Assembly: GCA_022703445.1 (NCBI GenBank)
Contig: JAKLDR010000007.1
Location: forward strand, 45,472 to 109,471
From: Planctomycetota bacterium
Lineage (GTDB): Bacteria > Planctomycetota > SZUA-567 > JAKLDR01
Reading direction: 5' to 3'
Length of the DNA: 64,000 nt
The position numbers and the translations under genes were made by a program. The notes beneath the pieces were generated by a model, which worked only from the letters and a program-made list of their open reading frames with translations, had not been told where the DNA came from and did not search any database. Positions 9,737 to 21,100 of the stretch are shown piece after piece; within the stretch, counting starts at the first letter, position 1; each line of letters starts with the position of its first letter.

Positions 9737-11227
<1,491 letters not shown>

Positions 11228-11560
11228 AAGCGCCGGGGGCGCAACTGGGCTCCCGGTCTCGTGGACCGCATCCCCGAAGCCCGTCTCCAATTAACGGGAT
11301 CGTCGTTTCTTCCCGGTTATGTCGCCAGACTCAGCGTCCCGACATAGGCGTTCCGCCAAGTGCCCGGATGAAGCTACAAACCGTCGTTCGGGCAGGCGCT
11401 TGGCCCAGGCTTTCGAGAGGGTTCTGCGAGGCTTTTCCCAGGCTGCCGGAGGCCGGCGCCGGGGGGCATTTAGCTTGATTTCAAAGTTGAATCTGGGCAC
11501 AATTAATAGACGTCCGTACGTCTCCGGGGGGCGTTATCGGACATGACGAGGGCCTGATCC
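11228..11560. other. 333-bp gap marking the left side of the island
   Basis: No gene is seen here. After a short hairpin (11230-11242) there is a 7-bp inverted repeat TATGTCG/CGACATA (11318-11324 with 11340-11346). An AT-richer tract (11470-11510) holds a promoter-like TTGATT (11475-11480), 17 bases, CACAAT (11498-11503). An inverted repeat AGACGT-4-ACGTCT (11508-11523) follows directly and could be an operator for the downstream recombinase. I looked for a copy of the tRNA-Ser 3' end here and found only an 8-base match, too little to call an attachment site. Confidence 0.4.
11475..11523 (+). promoter_or_regulatory. Possible promoter and operator of the 11561 recombinase gene
   Basis: TTGATT (11475-11480) and CACAAT (11498-11503) are 17 bases apart. 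A perfect AGACGT/ACGTCT inverted repeat with a 4-base loop (11508-11523) sits where transcription would begin, as expected for an autoregulatory site. Confidence 0.3.
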
Positions 11561-13681
11561 ATGCCTGAGAAAGGCTCCAGGGCACCTTCCGCCCTCCTCG
11601 GAGACATGCTGGCCGACTGGGATGCCTACTTTCACGGCCTCTGCCGATACCTCCAGAACTTCCTTGAGTCGTTTCCTCTCCAGGTCCCCGGTCAGCCCCA
11701 TGTCCCGCGGGATCCCAAGGAGGATCGGCACTTCACCCCGGCCATCCAGCAGTTCCAGGATGCCTTTGCGGAGGCTCCCGCCTGGCTCCGTAGTGAACTT
11801 GCTGGCGACCCGCTTCAGGCACCGGCTTTGCCCTCCTCCAATTACCCCATAGTCTATGACGAGGACGCCGCGCGGTTCTGGGTCGCCAAGGGTGGGCCGG
11901 ATGGCGATGCTCCGGACTTCTGGAGTCTGCTATCCCCCGAGTATCAACGGGTGCGGGAGCGGCTGCGGGCGCTGCAGACTGCCGTGGCAGCAGGGCGCCA
12001 CAAGAACGCCATAGGCCCCAGTGCCGAGGGGGTGAACGCGCCGGTTACGGTTTCCGCGGTCCGGGCGGAGGCCGTGCCTTCCAAGAGCGCTGGGGCTCGT
12101 CCTAAAGCCGTGAGCTCGCCTCCGAACTCCGTGGGTGATATCGGCGGGATTGCCCTGGCGCCGGGCAAACCGAGTGAACACCGCCACGCTGAAGCCCAAC
12201 CGGACAAGACCGGAACCGAGGCTACCGACTGGGCGCGCTACCGGGACAAGTATCGCACGGAGAAACTGCCCCTCGAAGGCTTCCCCGATGGGCGTGTGAA
12301 CAGGGTAACCGTCTCAAGACGCAATGGGGCCGTCATTCTTCGTTGGCGGCAGGGAGGAAAGCAACGGCGCGAGGTGATTGGGAGGCTCGATGACGCGAAG
12401 ACCCTCCCCCGTGCCCTTCTGCGCGCCTCGGAGATCAACCGCGACCTGGAAGGCGACAGCCGGGCTGCGTCATTCGCGGAGGCCACCGTCGCGGAGGCTT
12501 GCGACATCTTCCTGGCCTCGAAGGAGTCCTCCCCTGACGTGTGCGGGAAGACCATTGAGAAGTACCGTTCCGGGCTGCACCGGGTGAAGGAGTTCTGCGA
12601 ACTTCCTGAGCGTGGTGGCGGCCGGAAACTGGTCAGCGAGTGCGACACGGCCTGGTGCGAGAGCTTCTGTGCGTGGCTCGATGGCGTCAAGTCCACGAGA
12701 AACGGTGCCCCGCCCACTCCTGGCAACCCCGAGCGTCCACTGAGCATGGCTCTCAAGCGCGAAATCCGGCAGCGGCTGTGGAGCGTCTTCGAGCACGCCC
12801 GGTTGCGAACGCCGCCCCTGGTGCCGGCAGCCTTCCGTAACCCCATACCCAATGGGATGATCGGGCGCAAACGCCGGGAGATGCGCGGCGTCTCCGAGCC
12901 GCCGGTGTCCCTGGACGACTTGGCGAAGATCGCGACGGTCTGTGATCACTATCAGCTGGGCCTCCTTGCGATGCTCTTCGCCTACGGGCCCAGGCCCAGC
13001 GAACTCGGCCGGATCCTCAGGGCCGACTACGATGAGAGCACCGGGTTCCTGAGAATGATCTGCAGGCCGAAGTGCGGCTACCAGACCAAGGGCCGCCAGG
13101 ACAAGGCCTGGCCAGTCACCCCGGCGCTGGCCGCCAGCCTCCGGCCGTTCCTGCTCCGCGGGCCGGGTGTCCTGTTCGTGAAACGGGCGGTGTTCGAACG
13201 AACGGCCGGCGTGGTCCTGGCAGGCGCCACGGAGGACATGCTGGCCAGGGAGTATGAGGACCGGCTGGCGGCCGAGGCCAAGCGCCTGCGGCGTCAGCCC
13301 GGCAAGGTCGAGGCCGAACGCATCGCCGACGTGACCTGGGCGGCCGCCGGGGCGGTGGATGCCAGGGACGTGGCGCGTGAACTGGCCAACGCGGCCCGCA
13401 AGGCCGGACTCGCCCGCTGCCCCACGCCCAAGGACGTGCGACACCTGGTCGAGTCCGAGTGCGAGGCGGCCAGACTGTCGCCGGGCGTCATCCGCCAGCT
13501 CCTCGGCCATGCCCCCGTACGCGGCGACAGCCTCGTCAACTACAACCACACCGGCCGCGGCACCCTGACCGAACAGGTCAAGCTGCTCGATGAGCGCCGC
13601 GCTGGGTTGTTGGCGATCATGGCGGCAAGGGCTCAGGAACTCGAACAAGAGCAAACGGCAGGCAATGGCAGCGTGAAATAG
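11561..13681 (+). CDS. Large tyrosine recombinase with long N-terminal extension
   Basis: This 706-residue protein is far longer than a typical 300-450 residue integrase. About 220 N-terminal residues match nothing I know. Then come an arm-like region, a core-binding domain (AEACDIFLASKESS...TIEKYRSGLHRVKEF) and a catalytic domain. Arg I is in YGPRPSELGRIL (near 478), Arg II in DVRHLVES (near 626), His in LLGHAP (near 649) and the Tyr nucleophile in VNYNHTG (near 661). The layout recalls site-specific integrase-like proteins of PVC and Planctomycete genomes. A short UvrD-like remnant follows 15 bases later. It probably belongs to mobile DNA on the left side of the island. Confidence 0.8.
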   Translation: MPEKGSRAPSALLGDMLADWDAYFHGLCRYLQNFLESFPLQVPGQPHVPRDPKEDRHFTPAIQQFQDAFAEAPAWLRSELAGDPLQAPALPSSNYPIVYDEDAARFWVAKGGPDGDAPDFWSLLSPEYQRVRERLRALQTAVAAGRHKNAIGPSAEGVNAPVTVSAVRAEAVPSKSAGARPKAVSSPPNSVGDIGGIALAPGKPSEHRHAEAQPDKTGTEATDWARYRDKYRTEKLPLEGFPDGRVNRVTVSRRNGAVILRWRQGGKQRREVIGRLDDAKTLPRALLRASEINRDLEGDSRAASFAEATVAEACDIFLASKESSPDVCGKTIEKYRSGLHRVKEFCELPERGGGRKLVSECDTAWCESFCAWLDGVKSTRNGAPPTPGNPERPLSMALKREIRQRLWSVFEHARLRTPPLVPAAFRNPIPNGMIGRKRREMRGVSEPPVSLDDLAKIATVCDHYQLGLLAMLFAYGPRPSELGRILRADYDESTGFLRMICRPKCGYQTKGRQDKAWPVTPALAASLRPFLLRGPGVLFVKRAVFERTAGVVLAGATEDMLAREYEDRLAAEAKRLRRQPGKVEAERIADVTWAAAGAVDARDVARELANAARKAGLARCPTPKDVRHLVESECEAARLSPGVIRQLLGHAPVRGDSLVNYNHTGRGTLTEQVKLLDERRAGLLAIMAARAQELEQEQTAGNGSVK

Positions 13682-13696
13682 CCGGAGGGGTCGTTC

Positions 13697-13948
13697 ATGC
13701 CAGCCCTGTGTGATGGTTGCACGCAAGCCCAGCGCGAAGCCATCGAGCACGTCAACGGGCCCCTGCTGATCGTCGCCGGGCCGGTGGCGGGCAAGACCGA
13801 GGTCCTGGTCGGCCGCCACGCCGCCCTGATCTGGTTCCTGACAGCGGAGCAGGAGTTGCCGGGGCTGCGTGATGCGCTGAGGAGGAGGCGGTGGGACAGA
13901 TTGGGAGGTATTTGGGGGGTGAAGGTGGATAAGGTGGCGGCCGGGTAA
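13697..13948 (+). pseudogene. Truncated UvrD/PcrA-type helicase N-terminus
   Basis: This 83-codon frame has a good ribosome site (GGAGGGG) and begins like a superfamily I helicase: TQAQREAIEHVNGPLLIVAG, then a Walker A-like GPVAGKTEVLVGRHAALI (usual form AGAGSGKT). After about 48 residues the similarity stops, and the rest (a low-complexity Arg/Gly/Trp tail) looks like unrelated sequence. Only the Q-motif and P-loop segment remain, so no helicase activity is possible. It suggests the recombinase was once followed by a UvrD-family gene, later cut by a deletion or by insertion of the operon now at 14032-18396. Confidence 0.7.
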
Positions 13949-14031
13949 GGCGTAGGTGCATAGGAAACAGGCGGACAGTGCGGGAAATCGCAAACTGCCC
14001 CCCAAGTGCTCCGAGGCAGCCCAGATTCTGA

Positions 14032-14640
14032 TTAGCGGAACTCCCCCGCCCCTTGGAGCATGTTGACAACGGCCTCAATATCACCAGGGCGCTCGAGAAA
14101 ATCGTACTTCTCGGCCTGCAGCGTGATCACTGGGACGTTTTTGAGAGCCGCGAAGTACTCATCGTAGACTCGGCTTAAGTGCTCTAGATACTCAATTGGA
14201 ACTCCCTCCTCCATTGTGCGCCCCCTCCGCTTCATCCTCTCGGACAAGAACCTAGCAGGGGCGCGAAGATACAGAAGCAAGGAGGGCGTGCCCACCCTGG
14301 ATTCGAGGAAGGCGTATAGTTGCCTGAAGCACTCCAACTCAGGTCCAGACATATTGGCGACAGCAAACAACATGTCCTTGTAAAGATGGAAGTCGGCAAT
14401 CACGTGCTGCTCGAAGACGCCCTCCCTCTTGGCGCGGTTCAACTGGTGATAGTGAATGAGAGCACAGCAGAGCTCTGTCTCCAACGTGTAAGCAGCTCGA
14501 TCCGCGTAGAAGGCCTTCATGAACGGGTGGATGTCCATCGTTTCCACCAGATTCTGGATGGATAGCCGATCAGCAACCAGCCTGGCCAGAGTTGTCTTGC
14601 CGCTTCCCATCACTCCCTCAATAGCAACATAACTCGGCAT
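14032..14640 (-). CDS. Deoxynucleoside kinase, deoxyguanosine/deoxyadenosine-kinase type
   Basis: This is a 202-residue P-loop kinase. GVMGSGKTT (9-17) is the ATP site. The segment VIADFHLYKDMLFAVA closely follows the VIADYHIYKN-type motif of Bacillus deoxyguanosine kinase as I remember it. An Arg-rich lid (LSERMKRRGRTMEEG) follows. The expected reaction is dG (or dA) + ATP to dGMP (or dAMP). It is the last gene of a four-gene minus-strand operon, 17 bases after the DUF7002-like gene. Its likely product, dGMP, is the substrate expected for the PurZ-type enzyme two genes upstream. The region is visibly less GC-rich than the chromosome around it. Substrate preference is inferred. Confidence 0.85.
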   Translation of the reverse strand: MPSYVAIEGVMGSGKTTLARLVADRLSIQNLVETMDIHPFMKAFYADRAAYTLETELCCALIHYHQLNRAKREGVFEQHVIADFHLYKDMLFAVANMSGPELECFRQLYAFLESRVGTPSLLLYLRAPARFLSERMKRRGRTMEEGVPIEYLEHLSRVYDEYFAALKNVPVITLQAEKYDFLERPGDIEAVVNMLQGAGEFR

Positions 14641-14657
14641 GTTAACTCCCCACCGTA

Positions 14658-15332
14658 CTAAGGTGCATGTACTACCTCGACGATGCTCCTGCCCTTCCGG
14701 TGCTCCACGCGCAGCACAAGGTCAACAATGTCGGGAACTCCTTCTTCGACCGCCAGTTCAACGACCGGGTCTCTCCCCCTTCTCTTCCTGTCCCACTCCT
14801 CAAAGGGGTAGTCATCTATGGCGAGGAAGGTGTCCTTGCCTCGCGGTTGGGGATTAGGTCTTGCGCACCCTGTGTTGATTGGAGCCAAGACGATCATATC
14901 GCGGTACTTCTCCACCAATCTGGCAGTGTCCACAGTCAATACGCAGTGAGTCTTGTTACGATATGGCTTTGCGGCCAAGAGCCGCTGAAGTCGCTCCTCG
15001 GTCAGCCAGAAGAATACTTTCTTATTCAGGGTCTCATACCAGTCCTGCGGAGACAGGCCATCTTGTAGGCACCTCTCAAGCAGGGCGTCGCTCATCGGCT
15101 TCTGGTCACGGATAACAGCCTCTCCATACACAGAATGCGATATCCGCACTGAGTCCAAGCGGTGCAACGACTCAATCTTCCGCCGCTGTTCGCCGGCTAC
15201 CTGGAACAGGTCAAGAAGGGACGACGTGCTCAACAGACCGTGTTGCTGAATGCTCGCCCAAGTTCCTTCTTCGGCCATGTGAAATAGCCGTGGGTGTCGC
15301 AGTATCAAGTCCCCAAGTTGTTGTGGAGTCAT
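14658..15332 (-). CDS. DUF7002-like protein of the PurZ-macro operon
   Basis: This 224-residue protein shows a distinctive pattern I recall from the Pfam family DUF7002. It has LFHMAEEGTWASIQQHGLLS near the start, then VIRDQKPMSDALLERCL and WYETLNKKVFFWLTEERLQ, and a late PRGKDTFLAIDDYPFEEWD. The opening (a His-containing strand, then a helix ending HGLLST) superficially resembles DarT and related ADP-ribosyltransferase folds, but I cannot establish catalysis. It is 9 bases from the PurZ-fusion gene and 17 from the kinase gene, so it is translated with them. A macro-domain protein in the same operon makes an ADP-ribose role worth testing. It could be the effector of the system. Confidence 0.65.
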   Translation of the reverse strand: MTPQQLGDLILRHPRLFHMAEEGTWASIQQHGLLSTSSLLDLFQVAGEQRRKIESLHRLDSVRISHSVYGEAVIRDQKPMSDALLERCLQDGLSPQDWYETLNKKVFFWLTEERLQRLLAAKPYRNKTHCVLTVDTARLVEKYRDMIVLAPINTGCARPNPQPRGKDTFLAIDDYPFEEWDRKRRGRDPVVELAVEEGVPDIVDLVLRVEHRKGRSIVEVVHAP

Positions 15333-15341
15333 TTCAGCTGA

Positions 15342-16988
15342 CTACTCCCATGCGCGCCGGTCAATGATGCTTCTCTCATGACGACGAGTGCAGACTAGAG
15401 AGACTGGGGCCGCTGCTACCCTCTCGATCTCCTCAACCATCATGATGGTAAACTTGTCCAACTGCTCAAACCTCCTGGCACGGCAATTCCTCCTAGACAG
15501 GTAGTCCGCATGAGTCAGCGCAATATCGGTGGGGCCATTCAAGGAAGCGGCGCTCCTGAGCAAGTCCCAGTCAAACTCTGCGACTCGCCTGTTTCGGTGC
15601 GTGGTAGAAGTCTTCTCGTTCTTCAGAAGTTCGTCCACCGGGATCCCGGACCTTCCTGAAACATCCTGCCACGTGATCGGCTGCGACATCGGCCCTGAAG
15701 TGTGGCCCTTCGTCCCGGGATCCTGCACTCGAATAGGATAGGACCTGCATATCATAAGTACCCGGCGTACTCTGCTGGGCGATATGCCCGCCTCCGCCAA
15801 ACAGCCTGCCACGGTTGTATCGCGCGATGTTACGTGGGGGTAGTAACCGTGGTACAGGCTCAGCCCCGTTCCTTGAGTTCCTTCGAGAAACACCTTCCGG
15901 CCTTCGTAGAAGGCACGGCCTAAGAGGTGCCGAGTGGGCTGTACGTACGGTTTGAGGTCCGGGATGTCACGTGCGAGCTTGAGTGCATCCTTTCCCTTCT
16001 TGTAACGATCTGTGATCCTCCTTGCTGTGGCGAGGCCTACTCCTTGCCCTGTGGAACCGATCGACTGAACCAGTTTCTTCTCGGACGCAATGTCCCGATC
16101 CGAAATCACCATTGCCTGCTCGTCGATTGCCAGGCGGTCACACGATACTCCACAATCAGCGATCTCCTGAATGAGCTTGGGCACACGGATCACAGCCCCA
16201 GGGCCGATAACAAGCTTGGCTTCGAAGTTCGATAACGTTCCTGAAGGCAGATGATGAAACACATACTCACCACCACTCACAAGAACCGTGTGTCCTGCAT
16301 TGGGGCCACCAACCCTCACTAGGACGTCGTATTCCGGCGCTAGATAAGCAGCTACATGGCCCTTACCTTCGCTGCCGAACTGGCCGCCTACCATGACGTC
16401 AACTGTGCGCCCATAGCCGCGCCCAAAGAGGCCGATGTGGCCGGCGGCCCTCGCCAACACGTCTTCCGCCCGACAGCGATAGGTGTCTATCTCGACGTCC
16501 GCCGTTCTTGTAAGCCGGGCTACGGCTCTTTCCGTCCTATTCTTGAGAAGATCAACGTACCTAGCCAGCTCTCGGATCTCTTTCTTTGGACGCGCCAAAT
16601 ACCTCTTCTCAAGCACATCTTGGGGCGCTGTTAGGTGAATGTGTACGACCCGTCGTGGGTAGTGTGACCTGATCGCGTCTATCTGCCGTTCGATCCGCAC
16701 TGCATCGAGAACGACGAGCGCATCTGCCGATATCTTCCCGGAGTCCTCCATGCTTTGCAGGAGCTTCTGGAGAGCGTCACGCACCCAAGCTCCTTTGGTG
16801 CTGCGATCCAGCCTTTCCCCCAACTCCTGAAAATACTCACGGGTTAGTACGCGCCCCTTGTCTGGGCGCTGATATAGAAACTGAGACGTCTTGACATGCA
16901 GGGCTCCAAAAGCCTTGGAGAGATTTTCGGCAAGTGTTGTCTTGCCCGCGCACACTGGCCCAGACAGGACAACTATCTTGCTTGGCAT
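15342..16988 (-). CDS. Nucleotide kinase-PurZ-type adenylosuccinate synthetase fusion
   Basis: Two enzymes are fused in 548 residues. Residues 1-190 are a P-loop kinase (GPVCAGKTT at 10-18, VVLDAVRIERQID, and a lid near ARPKKE) of the nucleoside-monophosphate or deoxynucleoside kinase type. Residues 195-548 are an adenylosuccinate synthetase. Its loop reads GGQFGSEGKG (201-210), with Ser206 where PurA has the catalytic Asp (WGDEGKG). It also has NAGHT (230-234), SIGSTGQG (309-316), YPHVTSRDTT and SYPIRV. From memory, the Ser replacement and SIGSTGQG are features of phage PurZ, which converts dGMP + Asp to the precursor of 2-aminoadenine. The operon context (macro protein 25 bases upstream; DUF7002-like and dG-kinase-like genes downstream) supports deoxyguanylate metabolism. 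The fusion itself is unusual. Confidence 0.85.
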   Translation of the reverse strand: MPSKIVVLSGPVCAGKTTLAENLSKAFGALHVKTSQFLYQRPDKGRVLTREYFQELGERLDRSTKGAWVRDALQKLLQSMEDSGKISADALVVLDAVRIERQIDAIRSHYPRRVVHIHLTAPQDVLEKRYLARPKKEIRELARYVDLLKNRTERAVARLTRTADVEIDTYRCRAEDVLARAAGHIGLFGRGYGRTVDVMVGGQFGSEGKGHVAAYLAPEYDVLVRVGGPNAGHTVLVSGGEYVFHHLPSGTLSNFEAKLVIGPGAVIRVPKLIQEIADCGVSCDRLAIDEQAMVISDRDIASEKKLVQSIGSTGQGVGLATARRITDRYKKGKDALKLARDIPDLKPYVQPTRHLLGRAFYEGRKVFLEGTQGTGLSLYHGYYPHVTSRDTTVAGCLAEAGISPSRVRRVLMICRSYPIRVQDPGTKGHTSGPMSQPITWQDVSGRSGIPVDELLKNEKTSTTHRNRRVAEFDWDLLRSAASLNGPTDIALTHADYLSRRNCRARRFEQLDKFTIMMVEEIERVAAAPVSLVCTRRHERSIIDRRAWE

Positions 16989-17013
16989 GACCGCGTTGCT
17001 CCGATTGCCACCA

Positions 17014-18396
17014 TCAACCGATGGGCGTTACTGCCACAGGGCTTGCCCGGCCTGCCGCCCTTTCTCTGCGCGGAGGCAATTGATAGACAGACACTGCTAT
17101 CCCAGCTTCACACAGAATGTTCTCGATGAGCTCCTTCACGACAGCCCAAGAGCCTCCGGCTTCGCCAGTACCAATCCGTGGCATGTGAACACTGGCGTTC
17201 ATTTTGCCTGCCAGCACAGAAAGCTTCTCCAGACATAGTTCTAGAGCGACATACCGGATTCTGGGAGTAGTGGATGGCCCGAATCCCCGCTGACAAACCA
17301 TCTGGCAGACGTACAGAGCATCTTCTGCCCTCGTCATGCACACGTTACCCATTGAGGCATGGCCTCTGCCGGACATCACCCAAGTTCGATAGGCTCGTTG
17401 CACTGCGGGCCATTTCTTACGCACTTGCAGGCCGAACCCGGCACCCCAGACAAGAGCCCCATCGTTCACAACGTGTGCCACAATACGGCTTCCGTCCCCC
17501 CGTGGCTGACTAGCATCGCCGGTTAGCTCGGTGATAGTCTTCAGTGCGCCCCTCTTGGCGCCGCTTGGCACGGCGATGCCTACAACTCGTGGGTAGGCGT
17601 GGCCTGCGTAGCCGGGAATTCCAACGCACTCGACCCGCATTCGACTCCGCACGTTCGGCCATGTATCGAACCCTTTGGCAGTGAAACCGATGGCCGTGCA
17701 TTCACGAATTACTGTGTCGTCGGGCAGAAGGACTGCATGAAGAGGGCCGACTCCAGCTAAGGCGCGCGATGGGGTCGCGTAGTCAATCTGATACCGGCTG
17801 GCACCCCCCCCCGGCTCTTTGCGAGAGGCACAGAAGACTATACAAGGTTCGCGTGTGAGGCGAACAACGCGCAGCAAGAGCGCTTCCATGGACACATCGT
17901 ATTTGCTCCGGATGGCAAGAAGGTTGTCGATATTGAGCTCCTCTCTTCCCAGGTCTGGAAAACTACCGATGGGCATGAGCATCTCTGATGCGCCCAGGTT
18001 GCAGAGCATCTCCAGTTGCCAATCGTCCGCTACCATCTTGTGCTGTGGCAGGCGATTCCTCACCGCTTCGCGGCAGTCCGGAAAGAGCGTGTGTGCAAGG
18101 TCGTGTGCGATGGAGAAACGCATCCGCCCACGAGGGCGGTTGGGGTTGTACTCAATCCTGAGCTTCTCCCTCCCTATCGGAAGGATCCTGGCGTCCAGGA
18201 TATCATGACGAGGAGACAAGCTAACACCCAAGTATTTCGCCAGTTCACACGGGTCAAACGGTGGTCCTGACCAACCTCGCTGCAAAGCATCCAAGACAAC
18301 AGCACGGGCACGTCCAGTAACGAACGCCGCCGGATCCGCGTGCTCAGCAATAGCAGTTACCGATCGGTGCGTCCAGTTCGCACGCTGTGGGCTCAT
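17014..18396 (-). CDS. ImmA/IrrE-like metallopeptidase fused to a macro domain
   Basis: I start it at ATG 18396, preceded by GAGGAGGGG; the frame is open further upstream without a better site. The product has 460 residues. An ImmA/IrrE-type domain (about 25-150) has IAHDLAH (His98, Asp99, His102) in place of the usual HExxH, and a third ligand candidate Glu129 before LGASEMLMP. An unassigned beta-rich linker follows. A macro domain (about 286-442) has VVNDGALVWGAGFG (Asn311-Asp312) and the loop MPRIGTGEAGGSW (405-417), typical of ADP-ribose-binding or -hydrolysing macro folds. It is the first gene of the operon, so it may sense damage or phage and control or reverse ADP-ribosylation. Asp99 replacing Glu may weaken peptidase activity. 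Confidence 0.85.
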   Translation of the reverse strand: MSPQRANWTHRSVTAIAEHADPAAFVTGRARAVVLDALQRGWSGPPFDPCELAKYLGVSLSPRHDILDARILPIGREKLRIEYNPNRPRGRMRFSIAHDLAHTLFPDCREAVRNRLPQHKMVADDWQLEMLCNLGASEMLMPIGSFPDLGREELNIDNLLAIRSKYDVSMEALLLRVVRLTREPCIVFCASRKEPGGGASRYQIDYATPSRALAGVGPLHAVLLPDDTVIRECTAIGFTAKGFDTWPNVRSRMRVECVGIPGYAGHAYPRVVGIAVPSGAKRGALKTITELTGDASQPRGDGSRIVAHVVNDGALVWGAGFGLQVRKKWPAVQRAYRTWVMSGRGHASMGNVCMTRAEDALYVCQMVCQRGFGPSTTPRIRYVALELCLEKLSVLAGKMNASVHMPRIGTGEAGGSWAVVKELIENILCEAGIAVSVYQLPPRRERAAGRASPVAVTPIG

Positions 18397-18872
18397 CTGC
18401 ACCCCTCCTCGAACCGACGCCCCCTCCATTTCATCATGATATCTCTGCCGAAGACCGAGGTCAAGCTGTAGCAGCGTGCCCATTCTACGCAAGACCGTTC
18501 TGGCGGTTCCGGAGACAGCACAGTGATTGCCAGCCTCCCAGCAGGCGCCGCCCGCACTCAAATGCTACCCCAGATTGCCGAGATGTTCTGACAAGTTGCC
18601 ATGACGTCGCGCCCCATGCGGGCACCCCTCCTCGCACCGCGATGGGCGCGTCCTCTTGGCACATCGGCTGCTTGGGCAGTTCCGGGGGCATGAAAACGTG
18701 CCCATCATGTGACTGTCTAGCCTTCAAAACGCCATAAGCCCTTGAAGAACGTCTTAACTTCTGCGATGGGCGTTGAGTTGGAGAAGGAACGCATAGCCGG
18801 CCCATGAGCACTGTCACCCCGAATCTCCACTTGCTTGGCCTCCAGCTACAATAGCCGGTTGTCTGGCGGACG
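18397..18872. other. 476-bp gap upstream of the ImmA-macro gene
   Basis: No convincing gene is visible. Open frames here have no family resemblance and no ribosome site. The 13-base string GCACCCCTCCTCG occurs twice (near 18399 and 18622), the first overlapping the Shine-Dalgarno of the ImmA-macro gene, so the second may be left from a duplicated or deleted gene start. The promoter of the minus-strand operon must lie here, but I see no clear -35/-10 pair. Confidence 0.4.
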
Positions 18873-19304
18873 TCAACGGATCGCATCAGATATTCCGCCA
18901 GGCGACACGGCCAGGCCCCCACACGTGCGCTGGCAGATTTCCAGCACGGCGCGCGGGTCCGGCGGCTTGGACAGCACGTCGTCGGCGCCCATCTGCTTGT
19001 AGCGCCTGGTGTCCAGGAGTCCTATGTACCTGGAAACCAAGATAATGTGGGCAGCCAGTCTGCGCCTGTGGGCCTCCGCCAGCACCTCGATCCCACTCAG
19101 GCCGGGGAGGACGAGATCGAGGATGAGGACCCCGAACTTCCCATGGACGAGCATGTCGAGGCACTGCTCTCCGGTATGGGCAATAGCCACCCCAAAGCCG
19201 TGCTCGATCAGCATCATCATAGTGTCGGCGGTTGCGGCTTCGTCGCCCAAAGCCATTAGCACCTTAGGGACGGGACATTCCCGGGATCGGATCGCTTCCT
19301 GCAT
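18873..19304 (-). CDS. Single-domain response-regulator-like receiver
   Basis: This 143-residue receiver starts at ATG 19304 after a GGGGGGGCG tract; an ATG at 19343 is possible. The phospho-acceptor Asp is in LILDLVLPGLSG, the switch Ser in IILVSRY and the conserved Lys in VLSKPPD. The acidic pair that binds Mg2+ is replaced by GDEAA near the start (VLMALGDEAAT), so phosphorylation may be impaired. It has no DNA-binding domain. It lies between the island operon and the integrase on the same strand and is more GC-rich than that operon. Its partner is not in view. Confidence 0.75.
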   Translation of the reverse strand: MQEAIRSRECPVPKVLMALGDEAATADTMMMLIEHGFGVAIAHTGEQCLDMLVHGKFGVLILDLVLPGLSGIEVLAEAHRRRLAAHIILVSRYIGLLDTRRYKQMGADDVLSKPPDPRAVLEICQRTCGGLAVSPGGISDAIR

Positions 19305-19475
19305 AGTCGCCCCCCCCGGCCTGGCACGTAAGTGCCGTCTCATTTCGTCATCCAACGTGATCTGCGGACTCTCGCCGGTAGCACCGGGACTGCACCATCC
19401 GCCGGCCATTCTGGGGCGGAACCGCACCATTACTGTGCGATCGACCTCCCCGCCTTCCAGCTGAGGCCTGTCCGT

Positions 19476-19497
19476 GCCTCTTGCATGTGCAAGAGGC
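19476..19497. repeat. 10-bp-arm inverted repeat downstream of the integrase
   Basis: GCCTCTTGCA and TGCAAGAGGC (19476-19485 and 19488-19497) are perfect reverse complements separated by two bases, 54 bases after the integrase stop. It may be a transcription terminator without a U-run, or a recombination core or arm site. Confidence 0.6.
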
Positions 19498-19550
19498 GTG
19501 CCAACGGAACGTGGGCCAGCCCCCGGCCCATCCCATCGACCACTCAGTTG

Positions 19551-20915
19551 CTACCGCGAGGCGAAACGGGCTCGAACCGTATTGATCGTGTCCGCGCGCA
19601 ACTGGACCACCTTCGCTATCTCTCTTCCCAGCGTTGCTTCGCGTGTGTGAGTGTAGAGCGCTGTAGTCTCAAGGCGCGTATGCCCTATGATCTCCTTGCG
19701 GGCGAAGGGGTCTACGCTGGCCTCCTGCATGGCGGTGGCCATCTGGTGGCGCCAGAGCTTCGGACAGGTCAGGTCGCGCCGACCTATCTTCCTGGCCACA
19801 CGAATGAACTCGCGCCGAACTTCCTTGGGCGTGATCGCGCCCATCTCCCGCCAAAACCTCCTGCTGGCGTGCTCCTCGGCAAGCCTGCCCCACGCAAGGC
19901 CACCCTGCTGAGCTCCGGCAGCCACCCGCGTATCGAACTCACGCGCAAGATCCCTGGCATCTTTCCCCGCCAGGCTGGGCAGTTCCACTCCAGCGGCAAA
20001 GTGCCTCGCAAGAAACAGGGGCCCGCAGGTGCGCCCAGCCGCGAGCTCCTGCACCACAGCCAACAACTCATCGAAGAGGTAGACCTTGCGCTCGGCCCTG
20101 GTCTTGGTCTTCCAGCCGAGTTCGGGACGGTTGCGGATGGCTGCGGTCCGAGTAAAGAGGTTCACGTCCTCGACCAGCAGATGACAAAGCTCGCCCGGAC
20201 GCATGCCCGTGAAGGCCAGCGTGAAGAACACCCTGAACTGCCACGGGTCGCATGCTGCCAGGAACGCAGACTCCTCCTCCTGCGACAGCACGCCGGTAGG
20301 CTTGGCATCCTCGATCTTCATCCTCTCGATGCCGAGGTCGGTGAAGGGGTTGCGTGCATAGGGCGGCAGATGCCGCTGCCGGGCGGCGTAGTTGAACAGC
20401 GACCGGCATACCCCCAGAATGTAGATGAGGCCCTTGTCCCTGAGCTTCCTCCTGGGCGTCTTCGTGTGGCCGTTGGGCGAAACCATCAGGCTGCGAAGAT
20501 GCTTCACGAAGGACTCCGCGATTCGAGGAGTGACGCAGTCAGCCATCAGGCCGATGTGATTCGCCTGCGCGAAGCGCAGGAAGTGGTCCGTGGCCGCCCG
20601 ATAGCGGCTGACCGTGGCCACCGAGGAACGCAGCACGAGATCGTGGTTTTCGAGCCAGAGGCGCACGAGGTCTTCCACCGAGATGCGCTCGTAGCTGAAG
20701 GTGGAGGGCAGACCGTGGGCCAGCTGGGCATTGACCTCAGCGGCACGTCGCTCCGCTTCCCGCCGGTCAGGGCCTATGCGGATCTTCCGCGGAGTTCCGT
20801 TTTCTCGATAATAGAGGAGCCAAGAAGCTGCTCGCCGGAATACCGACACCTTCCCGATGTGAATGTTGCGCGGGGACCCGCGGCGGTCCCGAAGAACCAC
20901 ATTTCCCGATGGCAT
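19551..20915 (-). CDS. Tyrosine recombinase (integrase) next to tRNA-Ser
   Basis: Start ATG 20915 is chosen because GGAGGCGCTC precedes it; an in-frame ATG lies 18 bases upstream. In the 454-residue protein an N-terminal arm-binding segment (YYRENGTPRKIRIG) and a core-binding domain (EDLVRLWLENH...YRAATDHFLRFAQ) precede the catalytic domain. Arg239 is in FTGMRPGEL, Arg389 in LWRHQMA, His412 in IIGHTRL and Tyr421 in ALYTHTR. The gene is divergent from nothing and reads away from tRNA-Ser(CGA), whose 3' end is about 95 bases upstream. That is the classic arrangement for a tRNA-targeting genomic island extending leftward. It is unrelated in sequence to the recombinase at 11561. Confidence 0.9.
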   Translation of the reverse strand: MPSGNVVLRDRRGSPRNIHIGKVSVFRRAASWLLYYRENGTPRKIRIGPDRREAERRAAEVNAQLAHGLPSTFSYERISVEDLVRLWLENHDLVLRSSVATVSRYRAATDHFLRFAQANHIGLMADCVTPRIAESFVKHLRSLMVSPNGHTKTPRRKLRDKGLIYILGVCRSLFNYAARQRHLPPYARNPFTDLGIERMKIEDAKPTGVLSQEEESAFLAACDPWQFRVFFTLAFTGMRPGELCHLLVEDVNLFTRTAAIRNRPELGWKTKTRAERKVYLFDELLAVVQELAAGRTCGPLFLARHFAAGVELPSLAGKDARDLAREFDTRVAAGAQQGGLAWGRLAEEHASRRFWREMGAITPKEVRREFIRVARKIGRRDLTCPKLWRHQMATAMQEASVDPFARKEIIGHTRLETTALYTHTREATLGREIAKVVQLRADTINTVRARFASR

Positions 20916-20928
20916 GAGCGCCTCCGTG

Positions 20929-20956
20929 TGCACAATCCGTGCACAAATGTGCGCAG
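20929..20956. repeat. Direct repeats upstream of the integrase
   Basis: TGCACAA occurs at 20929-20935 and 20940-20946, with a related TGCGCAG at 20950-20956. The 10-11 bp spacing places the copies on one helical face just ahead of the integrase start. They are candidates for integrase arm sites or an excisionase/repressor operator. Confidence 0.4.
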
Positions 20957-20971
20957 CTGGAGGCCTCTTTA

Positions 20972-21000
20972 ATAACTAACCCCTGGAGGATCCTGGGGTT
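20972..21000 (-). terminator. Terminator-like hairpin after tRNA-Ser
   Basis: Reading the minus strand past the tRNA 3' end, AACCCC and GGGGTT (arms 20978-20983 and 20995-21000) enclose an 11-base loop and are followed by an AT-rich AGTTATT. This fits an intrinsic terminator of the tRNA transcript. It may also overlap the island attachment region. Confidence 0.5.
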
Positions 21001-21010
21001 GCGCGCTCAA

Positions 21011-21100
<90 letters not shown>

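Follow-up and report, generated by a model that had tools for sequence, protein, structure and literature searches.

Why would a bacterial genomic island encode a PurZ-like enzyme of the kind known from phages in one operon with a kinase, a macrodomain protein, and a member of a family of unknown function? The question is raised by a 64,000-nucleotide stretch of DNA from a Planctomycetota bacterium (GenBank assembly GCA_022703445.1, contig JAKLDR010000007.1, positions 45,472 to 109,471), the whole of which is here called the window. In its four-gene operon, a PurZ-like synthetase domain is fused to a P-loop kinase domain, and this kinase-PurZ protein probably yields a deoxynucleotide of 2-aminoadenine (Z), a rare base found in the DNA of some phages. 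Our analysis shows that the fusion recurs in many phyla next to a DUF7002 protein, a predicted ADP-ribosyltransferase, and mostly also next to a fusion of an ImmA-type peptidase with a macrodomain (ImmA-macro). The operon comprises the following features.

14032..14640, minus strand: deoxynucleoside kinase family protein (202 aa; PF01712, 115 bits), predicted accessory supplier of deoxynucleoside monophosphate (dNMP)
14658..15332, minus strand: DUF7002 protein (224 aa; PF22531, 245 bits), predicted DarT1-like ADP-ribosyltransferase
15342..16406, minus strand: PurZ-like synthetase domain of the kinase-PurZ fusion, residues 195-548 (PF00709, 184 bits)
16419..16988, minus strand: N-terminal P-loop kinase domain of the kinase-PurZ fusion, residues 1-190 (AAA_18, 37 bits, residues 6-139)
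17014..18396, minus strand: ImmA/IrrE-type zinc peptidase and macrodomain fusion (460 aa; PF06114, 34.6 bits)

The fusion is a single minus-strand gene (15342-16988), and the start codon of the ImmA-macro gene is uncertain (18396 or a codon upstream). An initial annotation, made from the letters of the window alone, had described four closely spaced minus-strand genes less GC-rich than their surroundings; the coordinates, with intergenic gaps of 17, 9, and 25 bp (from the 14032 side), and the GC contents (0.545, 0.553, 0.565, and 0.581 for the four genes versus 0.694 for the window outside 13600-21000) confirm this.

A protein search with the fusion gave 5,438 matches at an E value of ≤0.001 among 7,997 scored. 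The best 120 of the 5,438 are full length or nearly so and 56 to 64% identical to the query, the window's own entry excepted; the remainder may include ordinary PurA. With each of 84,980 species represented by one genome, relatives are encoded in 521 stretches, of which the 79 best loci were examined. Their hosts belong to Planctomycetes, Verrucomicrobia, Acidobacteria, Actinobacteria, Chloroflexi, Synergistaceae, Myxococcaceae, Gemmatimonadetes, Proteobacteria, genera of Bacteroidetes, and archaea. Within 3.5 kb of the fusion gene, family profiles detect DUF7002 in 77 of the 79 loci (in 66 as the next gene downstream, in the same orientation), the two others being L063 and L077, which ends at a contig end, and ImmA-macro is found in 61 loci (directly upstream in 59). 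The order ImmA-macro/kinase-PurZ/DUF7002, adjacent and on the same strand, occurs in 55 of the 79 loci, which is more than chance would give. On the scale of whole genomes, taken for 50 of these loci, DUF7002 is present in 49 of 50 genomes with the fusion (50 copies) and in none of 14 controls.

The deoxynucleoside kinase gene, in contrast, is exchangeable and takes the same slot only in L015 and L043 besides the window. A fixed four-gene system was rejected for this reason: of the gene set proposed initially, a three-gene core is conserved in many phyla, so that its co-occurrence stands, while the full set has the support of three loci. The fusion system is rare in the window's own phylum, with 2 of 392 genomes, one of them that of the window, and this patchy and wide spread would fit a pattern common among defence genes. 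One archaeal locus (L029) has two kinase-PurZ genes that face each other, together with one ImmA-macro and one DUF7002 gene.

Is the synthetase domain PurZ or PurA? P-loop kinase families account for residues 6-139 of the fusion and adenylosuccinate synthetase models for residues 195-546. The initial annotation had recognized a PurZ-type enzyme, which the active site supports, but had not named the N-terminal kinase domain, in which 18 columns are invariant across 35 rows, viral sequences and separate kinases among them. The PurZ domain matches PHROG 1211 with 247 bits. In phage PurZ, the catalytic Asp13 of PurA is replaced by Ser, according to the accessible part of PMC8342488. This position is Ser in 87 of 87 family rows, cellular and viral (S206 in the window copy), and the PurA of the same genome, encoded elsewhere, has Asp there; an assignment of the fusion to ordinary PurA was rejected on these two grounds. 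The residues of the deoxyguanosine monophosphate (dGMP) pocket of S-2L PurZ that were looked up (G22, S23, N49, A50, T132, Q190, R240, and V241) are identical in all 87 rows. A PurZ-type insertion after Arg-Val is present in the fusion, as in phage PurZ. Other positions are mixed: the PurZ-typical T273 is kept as Thr in 63 rows and replaced by Gly, the PurA residue, in 22 and by Ser in 2, and the nucleoside triphosphate base residue is Asp in all 87, a feature shared by PurA and Wayne PurZ0 but not by S-2L PurZ. In a tree of 65 rows, about half of the family, the fusions form a clade of their own (starred; 99/99) beside phage PurZ, PurZ0, and unfused viral sequences, and the split between the fusions' side and two PurA rows is supported at 100/96. 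The order among the Ser clades is weakly supported and thus unsure, because branches are long and the bootstrap had not settled; L082, a cellular sequence with a cut start, is labeled unfused in this tree.

Several genes found beside the core would fit a Z pathway. A pyrophosphohydrolase of the MazG/PRA-PH type occurs in 12 of the 79 loci (PF01503, 72 bits, for the one run against Pfam), and a separate kinase related to the kinase domain of the fusion occurs in 10 (one likewise run against Pfam); an eleventh kinase match, in L047, is a fragment of a split fusion gene. A YfbR-like HD protein is encoded in three loci and also near the fusion on the rhizobial plasmids L118, L119, and L120. Four Actinobacterial genomes carry a PurB-type lyase (PF00206) adjoining the system, in addition to a more distant one at another site; two Actinobacterial genomes with the system but no lyase neighbor gave no match at an E value of 1e-20. 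For comparison, the S-2L Z-cluster contains a MazG-type protein, PurZ, and an HD phosphohydrolase (accessible part of PMC8342488). The deoxynucleoside kinase of the window matches the PDB entries 8puu (65 bits) and 2jas, whose chain is named deoxyguanosine kinase (43 bits).

What would the constant partner, DUF7002, do? Its predicted structure (pLDDT, 97.5) very probably represents an ADP-ribosyltransferase fold, and the nearest structure is DarT1, which is both the best aligned chain and the best PDB profile match, a weak one (15.2 bits; E value, 0.1). Across an alignment of 62 rows of plausible length, H18 and E192 are invariant. Z has the same N2 and N3 as guanine. According to the accessible part of PMC11543638, DarT1 attaches ADP-ribose to N2 of guanine and uses an Asn for N2/N3. 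H18 of DUF7002 aligns with the His of the HFT run of DarT1, numbered H17-F18-T19 in that paper. E192 and N153 were tentatively equated with E152 and N104 of DarT1 by their order along the chain. The proposal that the DUF7002-like protein is the effector appears likely.

The third core protein combines two domains. Its peptidase part matches the PADLOC model of CapP (68 bits), and the protein also matches that of DarG (28 bits). The macro part stays under the Pfam cutoff (16 of 22 bits) yet scores 105 bits with a solved macrodomain (2afc) and with BT1257 and 35 bits with a macrodomain of ALC1; the DarG model NF048014 gives 26.5 bits, below its cutoff of 250. The Glu of HExxH is kept in at least 90% of 59 rows, and the window copy reads HDLAH. 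The protein resembles the CapP/CapH and IrrE-type regulators in its ImmA part and differs from them in that this part is fused to a macrodomain and that the four-gene operon has no separate repressor gene. A role as a sensor or restraint is likely, in keeping with the sensor or antidote suggested before.

The setting suggests that the gene set probably has a role in defense. N6 DNA methylase genes of the type I restriction methylase family (PF02384) lie within 20 kb of DUF7002 in 6 of 49 genomes, whereas genome sizes and copy numbers predict 0.49 (Poisson P = 1.3e-5). This test covered the 49 genomes with a placed DUF7002; G429, which has no DUF7002, was left out, and one of the two G435 copies was used. 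When ten neighbors were run against PADLOC, nine matched: RdrB of RADAR (L119), GajB of Gabija (L118), SIR2 and AbiEii (L120), JetA and JetC of Wadjet (L004, with JetA 33 bp after DUF7002), DrmD of DISARM (L020), a type I restriction protein (L019), and the candidate PDC-S19 (L059); the protein from L037 matched nothing. Because the ten were picked by hand, they illustrate the setting and do not measure enrichment. Against the PADLOC-2023 library, which does not hold later systems, DUF7002 has no match at an E value of 0.1 and the other three proteins match single-protein models only.

We tentatively favor a mechanism in which the gene set makes Z deoxynucleotides and arms the DarT1-like DUF7002 protein against phage DNA, with ImmA-macro as a restraint. 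(i) dGMP would come from the deoxynucleoside kinase (in the window), from a MazG-type dGTP hydrolase (elsewhere), or from DNA breakdown during infection. (ii) The PurZ domain would join dGMP and aspartate to give succino-dZMP, from which (iii) dZMP would be released by the host's or a dedicated PurB. (iv) The fused or separate kinase would raise dZMP towards dZTP, and (v) Z would replace A in replicating phage DNA. (vi) DUF7002 would then use NAD+ to ADP-ribosylate the 2-amino group of Z, and probably that of G, in single-stranded DNA and block replication. (vii) The macrodomain would remove or read ADP-ribose, while the ImmA peptidase would govern release of the effector. The first half of this scheme builds on residues and recurrent pathway genes and the second half on the fold and chemistry. 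Gene content, order, conservation, active-site residues, predicted fold, and island setting are its observed basis, from which we infer all of the reactions and the whole of steps v to vii. That Z in DNA is the target of DUF7002 is possible and somewhat doubtful. More doubtful still is the full scenario in which cells own a chromosomal Z pathway as a weapon: they would seed invader DNA with 2-aminoadenine, whose extra 2-amino group a DarT1-like enzyme would then ADP-ribosylate.

A number of observations weigh against the favored mechanism. At the synthetase, the NCBIfam PurZ model NF038379 scores 212.1 bits, below its cutoff of 300, for which reason the fusion is here termed PurZ-like and kept apart from the curated PurZ family; dGMP is predicted as its substrate from residues, and the dGMP-pocket residues looked up are, except for S23, also common to the one PurA compared. 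As for the pathway genes, only one of the three YfbR-like proteins run against Pfam is above the cutoff, with two just below, and the similarity of the cellular MazG and HD proteins to S-2L MazZ and DatZ reaches at best 16.8 and 16.4 bits, in two members and one member, respectively; since these matches are weak, orthology is not established. No Z polymerase gene common to the cellular loci was seen among the neighbors. The window copy itself may be weakened or impaired, because of its HDLAH motif and a His at F493, which is Phe in 87 of 87 relatives, and ImmA-macro was not found near the fusion in 18 of the 79 loci (L070 starts shortly upstream, which leaves one open). At the transferase, Foldseek TM-scores of DUF7002 to ADP-ribosyltransferases are low (0.43/0.45 for DarT1), and a profile comparison with three DarT-family proteins was not significant (probability of 1 to 2%), so that a proof from sequence that DUF7002 is a DarT failed; a Pfam scan at E values up to 0.1 gave DUF7002 and a weak IQUB match, and no PF14487 (DarT). 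DUF7002 also occurs without PurZ. Among 396 Actinobacterial genomes, 13 match DUF7002, 11 of them above the cutoff, and in 10 of these 11 there is no kinase-PurZ match at an E value of 1e-20. Among 398 genomes of Pseudomonadota, five are above the DUF7002 cutoff; the fusion adjoins in three (one being the search center and another already known), and the two remaining, more divergent DUF7002 genes have no fusion inside a flank of about 1.5 kb. Plasmid records with DUF7002 show the fusion adjoining in 8 of 10 and lacking in 2. Since the PurZ-free copies retain largely the same active site, the transferase can exist without Z, guanine alone may be its target and is likely the older one, and a strictly Z-bound DUF7002 is not supported.

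There are three other explanations for the gene set. The one that survives best is that the Z nucleotide is a signal: infection would raise dGMP, kinase-PurZ would convert it to dZ or succino-dZ phosphates, and the binding of these would activate the ADP-ribosyltransferase or release it from ImmA-macro, with abortive infection as the outcome. We consider this doubtful in absolute terms and nearly as likely as the favored entry of Z into phage DNA. It would fit the lack of a common Z polymerase gene in the cellular loci and a regulator slot that is filled by ImmA-macro in 61 of the 79 loci and by a trypsin-EAD1 protein preceding the fusion in L037, where ImmA-macro was not found. Triggering of defense by a nucleotide is, moreover, an established logic: Kongming is a dITP-signaling defense with deaminase, HAM1-type, and SIR2-type proteins. 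Both systems would remodel a purine deoxynucleotide, possibly as an infection signal; the four proteins of the window, however, have no deaminase, HAM1, or SIR2 match in Pfam, and their predicted chemistry is the amination of dGMP. Against a signal, the MazG, PurB, kinase, and YfbR-like enzymes resemble pool editing for bulk dZTP rather than for a trace compound.

It is improbable that a DarT1-type toxin and a macro antitoxin act on guanine alone, with the dGMP-consuming kinase-PurZ protein as a side arm that drains the deoxynucleotide pool or poisons it with dZTP. In its favor, the active site is largely retained in DUF7002 without PurZ: of 14 such rows, all have N153 and E192, 13 have H18 (the other shows a gap), 12 have R58, and 10 have R75 together with D76. 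The S-2L Z-cluster, furthermore, is toxic when expressed in Escherichia coli (accessible part of PMC8342488). On the other hand, 77 of 79 loci have the two genes paired within 3.5 kb, which speaks for a closer bond than two separate weapons would have. In comparison with known toxin-antitoxin systems, DUF7002 has the predicted fold closest to that of DarT1 of DarTG1 (DarT1-NADAR), but the operon has no NADAR match; it encodes a macrodomain protein, as does DarTG2 (DarT2 with a macro DarG), but the macrodomain is fused to an ImmA peptidase. Unlike both, the present set is without a PF14487 match and is coupled to nucleotide-synthesis genes. In seven of the ten PurZ-free Actinobacterial loci (L134-L136, L138, L139, L141, and L142), a presumably DnaE-like protein of about 1,160 to 1,240 aa is among the neighbors of DUF7002.

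Finally, an ordinary adenylosuccinate synthetase of a metabolic island with incidental neighbors is very unlikely, since the best NCBIfam score of the fusion, 277 bits with the adenylosuccinate synthetase model NF003295 (below the cutoff of 368), is set against the Ser in 87 of 87 rows, the separate PurA with Asp, the patchy spread, and the defense genes near several copies.

How does the cellular set relate to viruses? In IMG/VR, 17 loci encode a relative, eight of them with the kinase part in fused form. Six of these eight (L083, L084, L086, L088, L089, and L090, with L086 and L089 being near copies) are without DUF7002 and ImmA-macro, and two (L085 and L087) have DUF7002. Within 3 kb of the viral fusion lie genes for DNA polymerase A (L084, L086, and L088), dNMP kinase (L084), and DUF1937 or DUF4406 proteins (L083 and L090), presumably NDT-like families. 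Thus, the viral enzyme, stripped of its partners, sits among replication genes. Known Z-phages rely on a DNA polymerase I and partly also on an NDT-like enzyme (accessible part of PMC12884076). The fused viral members fall within the cellular clade in the tree. Of 50,697 phage records, 218 match the PurZ part of the fusion; a match over 80% of its length occurs in none of the 50,697, nor does any of them match DUF7002. With DUF7002 in just two of eight fused IMG/VR loci, a phage origin of the whole set was rejected. In L086, a UDG-DNA polymerase A fusion (996 aa; 10664-13654) is encoded near primase, helicase, and kinase-PurZ genes.

The Z-cluster (purZ, mazZ, and datZ) of the cyanophage S-2L and its relatives shares with the present set a PurZ-type synthetase with Ser for Asp13, and MazG-type and YfbR-like HD enzymes stand beside some cellular loci. 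The present set differs from it in being cellular, in the fusion of a kinase to PurZ, in its own clade in the tree, and in having the predicted ADP-ribosyltransferase in 77 of 79 loci and no common Z polymerase.

A literature search found no description of such a system, most subscription papers and preprints being outside its reach. The accessible part of PMC9503650 does not mention PurA, adenylosuccinate, or IrrE, and PMC12884076, a study of Z-phage enzymes, deals with PurZ of viruses and with four sequences from archaea; its accessible main text does not contain the word "kinase". The domains are all from known families, and the novelty lies in their wiring. Z-DNA synthesis is known from phages; a conserved cellular set that couples Z-type enzymes with an ADP-ribosyltransferase would imply that cells, too, produce Z and put it to use, DUF7002 would gain a predicted activity, and many genes now called adenylosuccinate synthase would be reannotated. 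Overall, the initial interpretation is partly supported.

In the window, the operon is flanked by two tyrosine recombinase-like genes. This had been noted before, and the right one is clear, whereas the left one scores below the cutoff.

11561..13681, plus strand: second tyrosine recombinase-like protein (706 aa; PF00589, 21.8 bits, under the cutoff of 27.1)
19551..20933, minus strand: tyrosine recombinase of the island, adjoining tRNA-Ser (PF00589, 57.9 bits)
21011..21100, minus strand: tRNA-Ser (cga; ARAGORN), possible insertion site

An exact-repeat search of the window for attachment repeats of the tRNA-Ser gene found no second copy of any stretch of 12 or more bases. The sole defense-type hint within the window is an 83-aa start of a UvrD/Rep helicase (13697-13948, plus strand; PF00580, 31.5 bits), which seems to be what is left of another island gene. 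A response-regulator receiver protein (18873-19430, minus strand; PF00072, 56 bits) is encoded upstream of the operon.

Three further families accompany the system elsewhere. Proteins of about 240 to 350 aa with an MKNQYFGDxNDYKKY-like start are encoded near it in nine loci of Chloroflexota and archaea (L023, L030, L031, L034, L036, L045, L054, L055, and L059); the one member tested (L030) has no Pfam match. Proteins of 450 to 520 aa occur with the YfbR-like protein in the rhizobial version (L118, 7675-9045; L119, 11049-12410; L120, 7678-9054; L071; L072; and L081), and three members tested likewise have no Pfam match. In Alphaproteobacteria, a peptidase family is encoded directly downstream of the system in L051, L063, L064 (M48, 28 bits), and L066.

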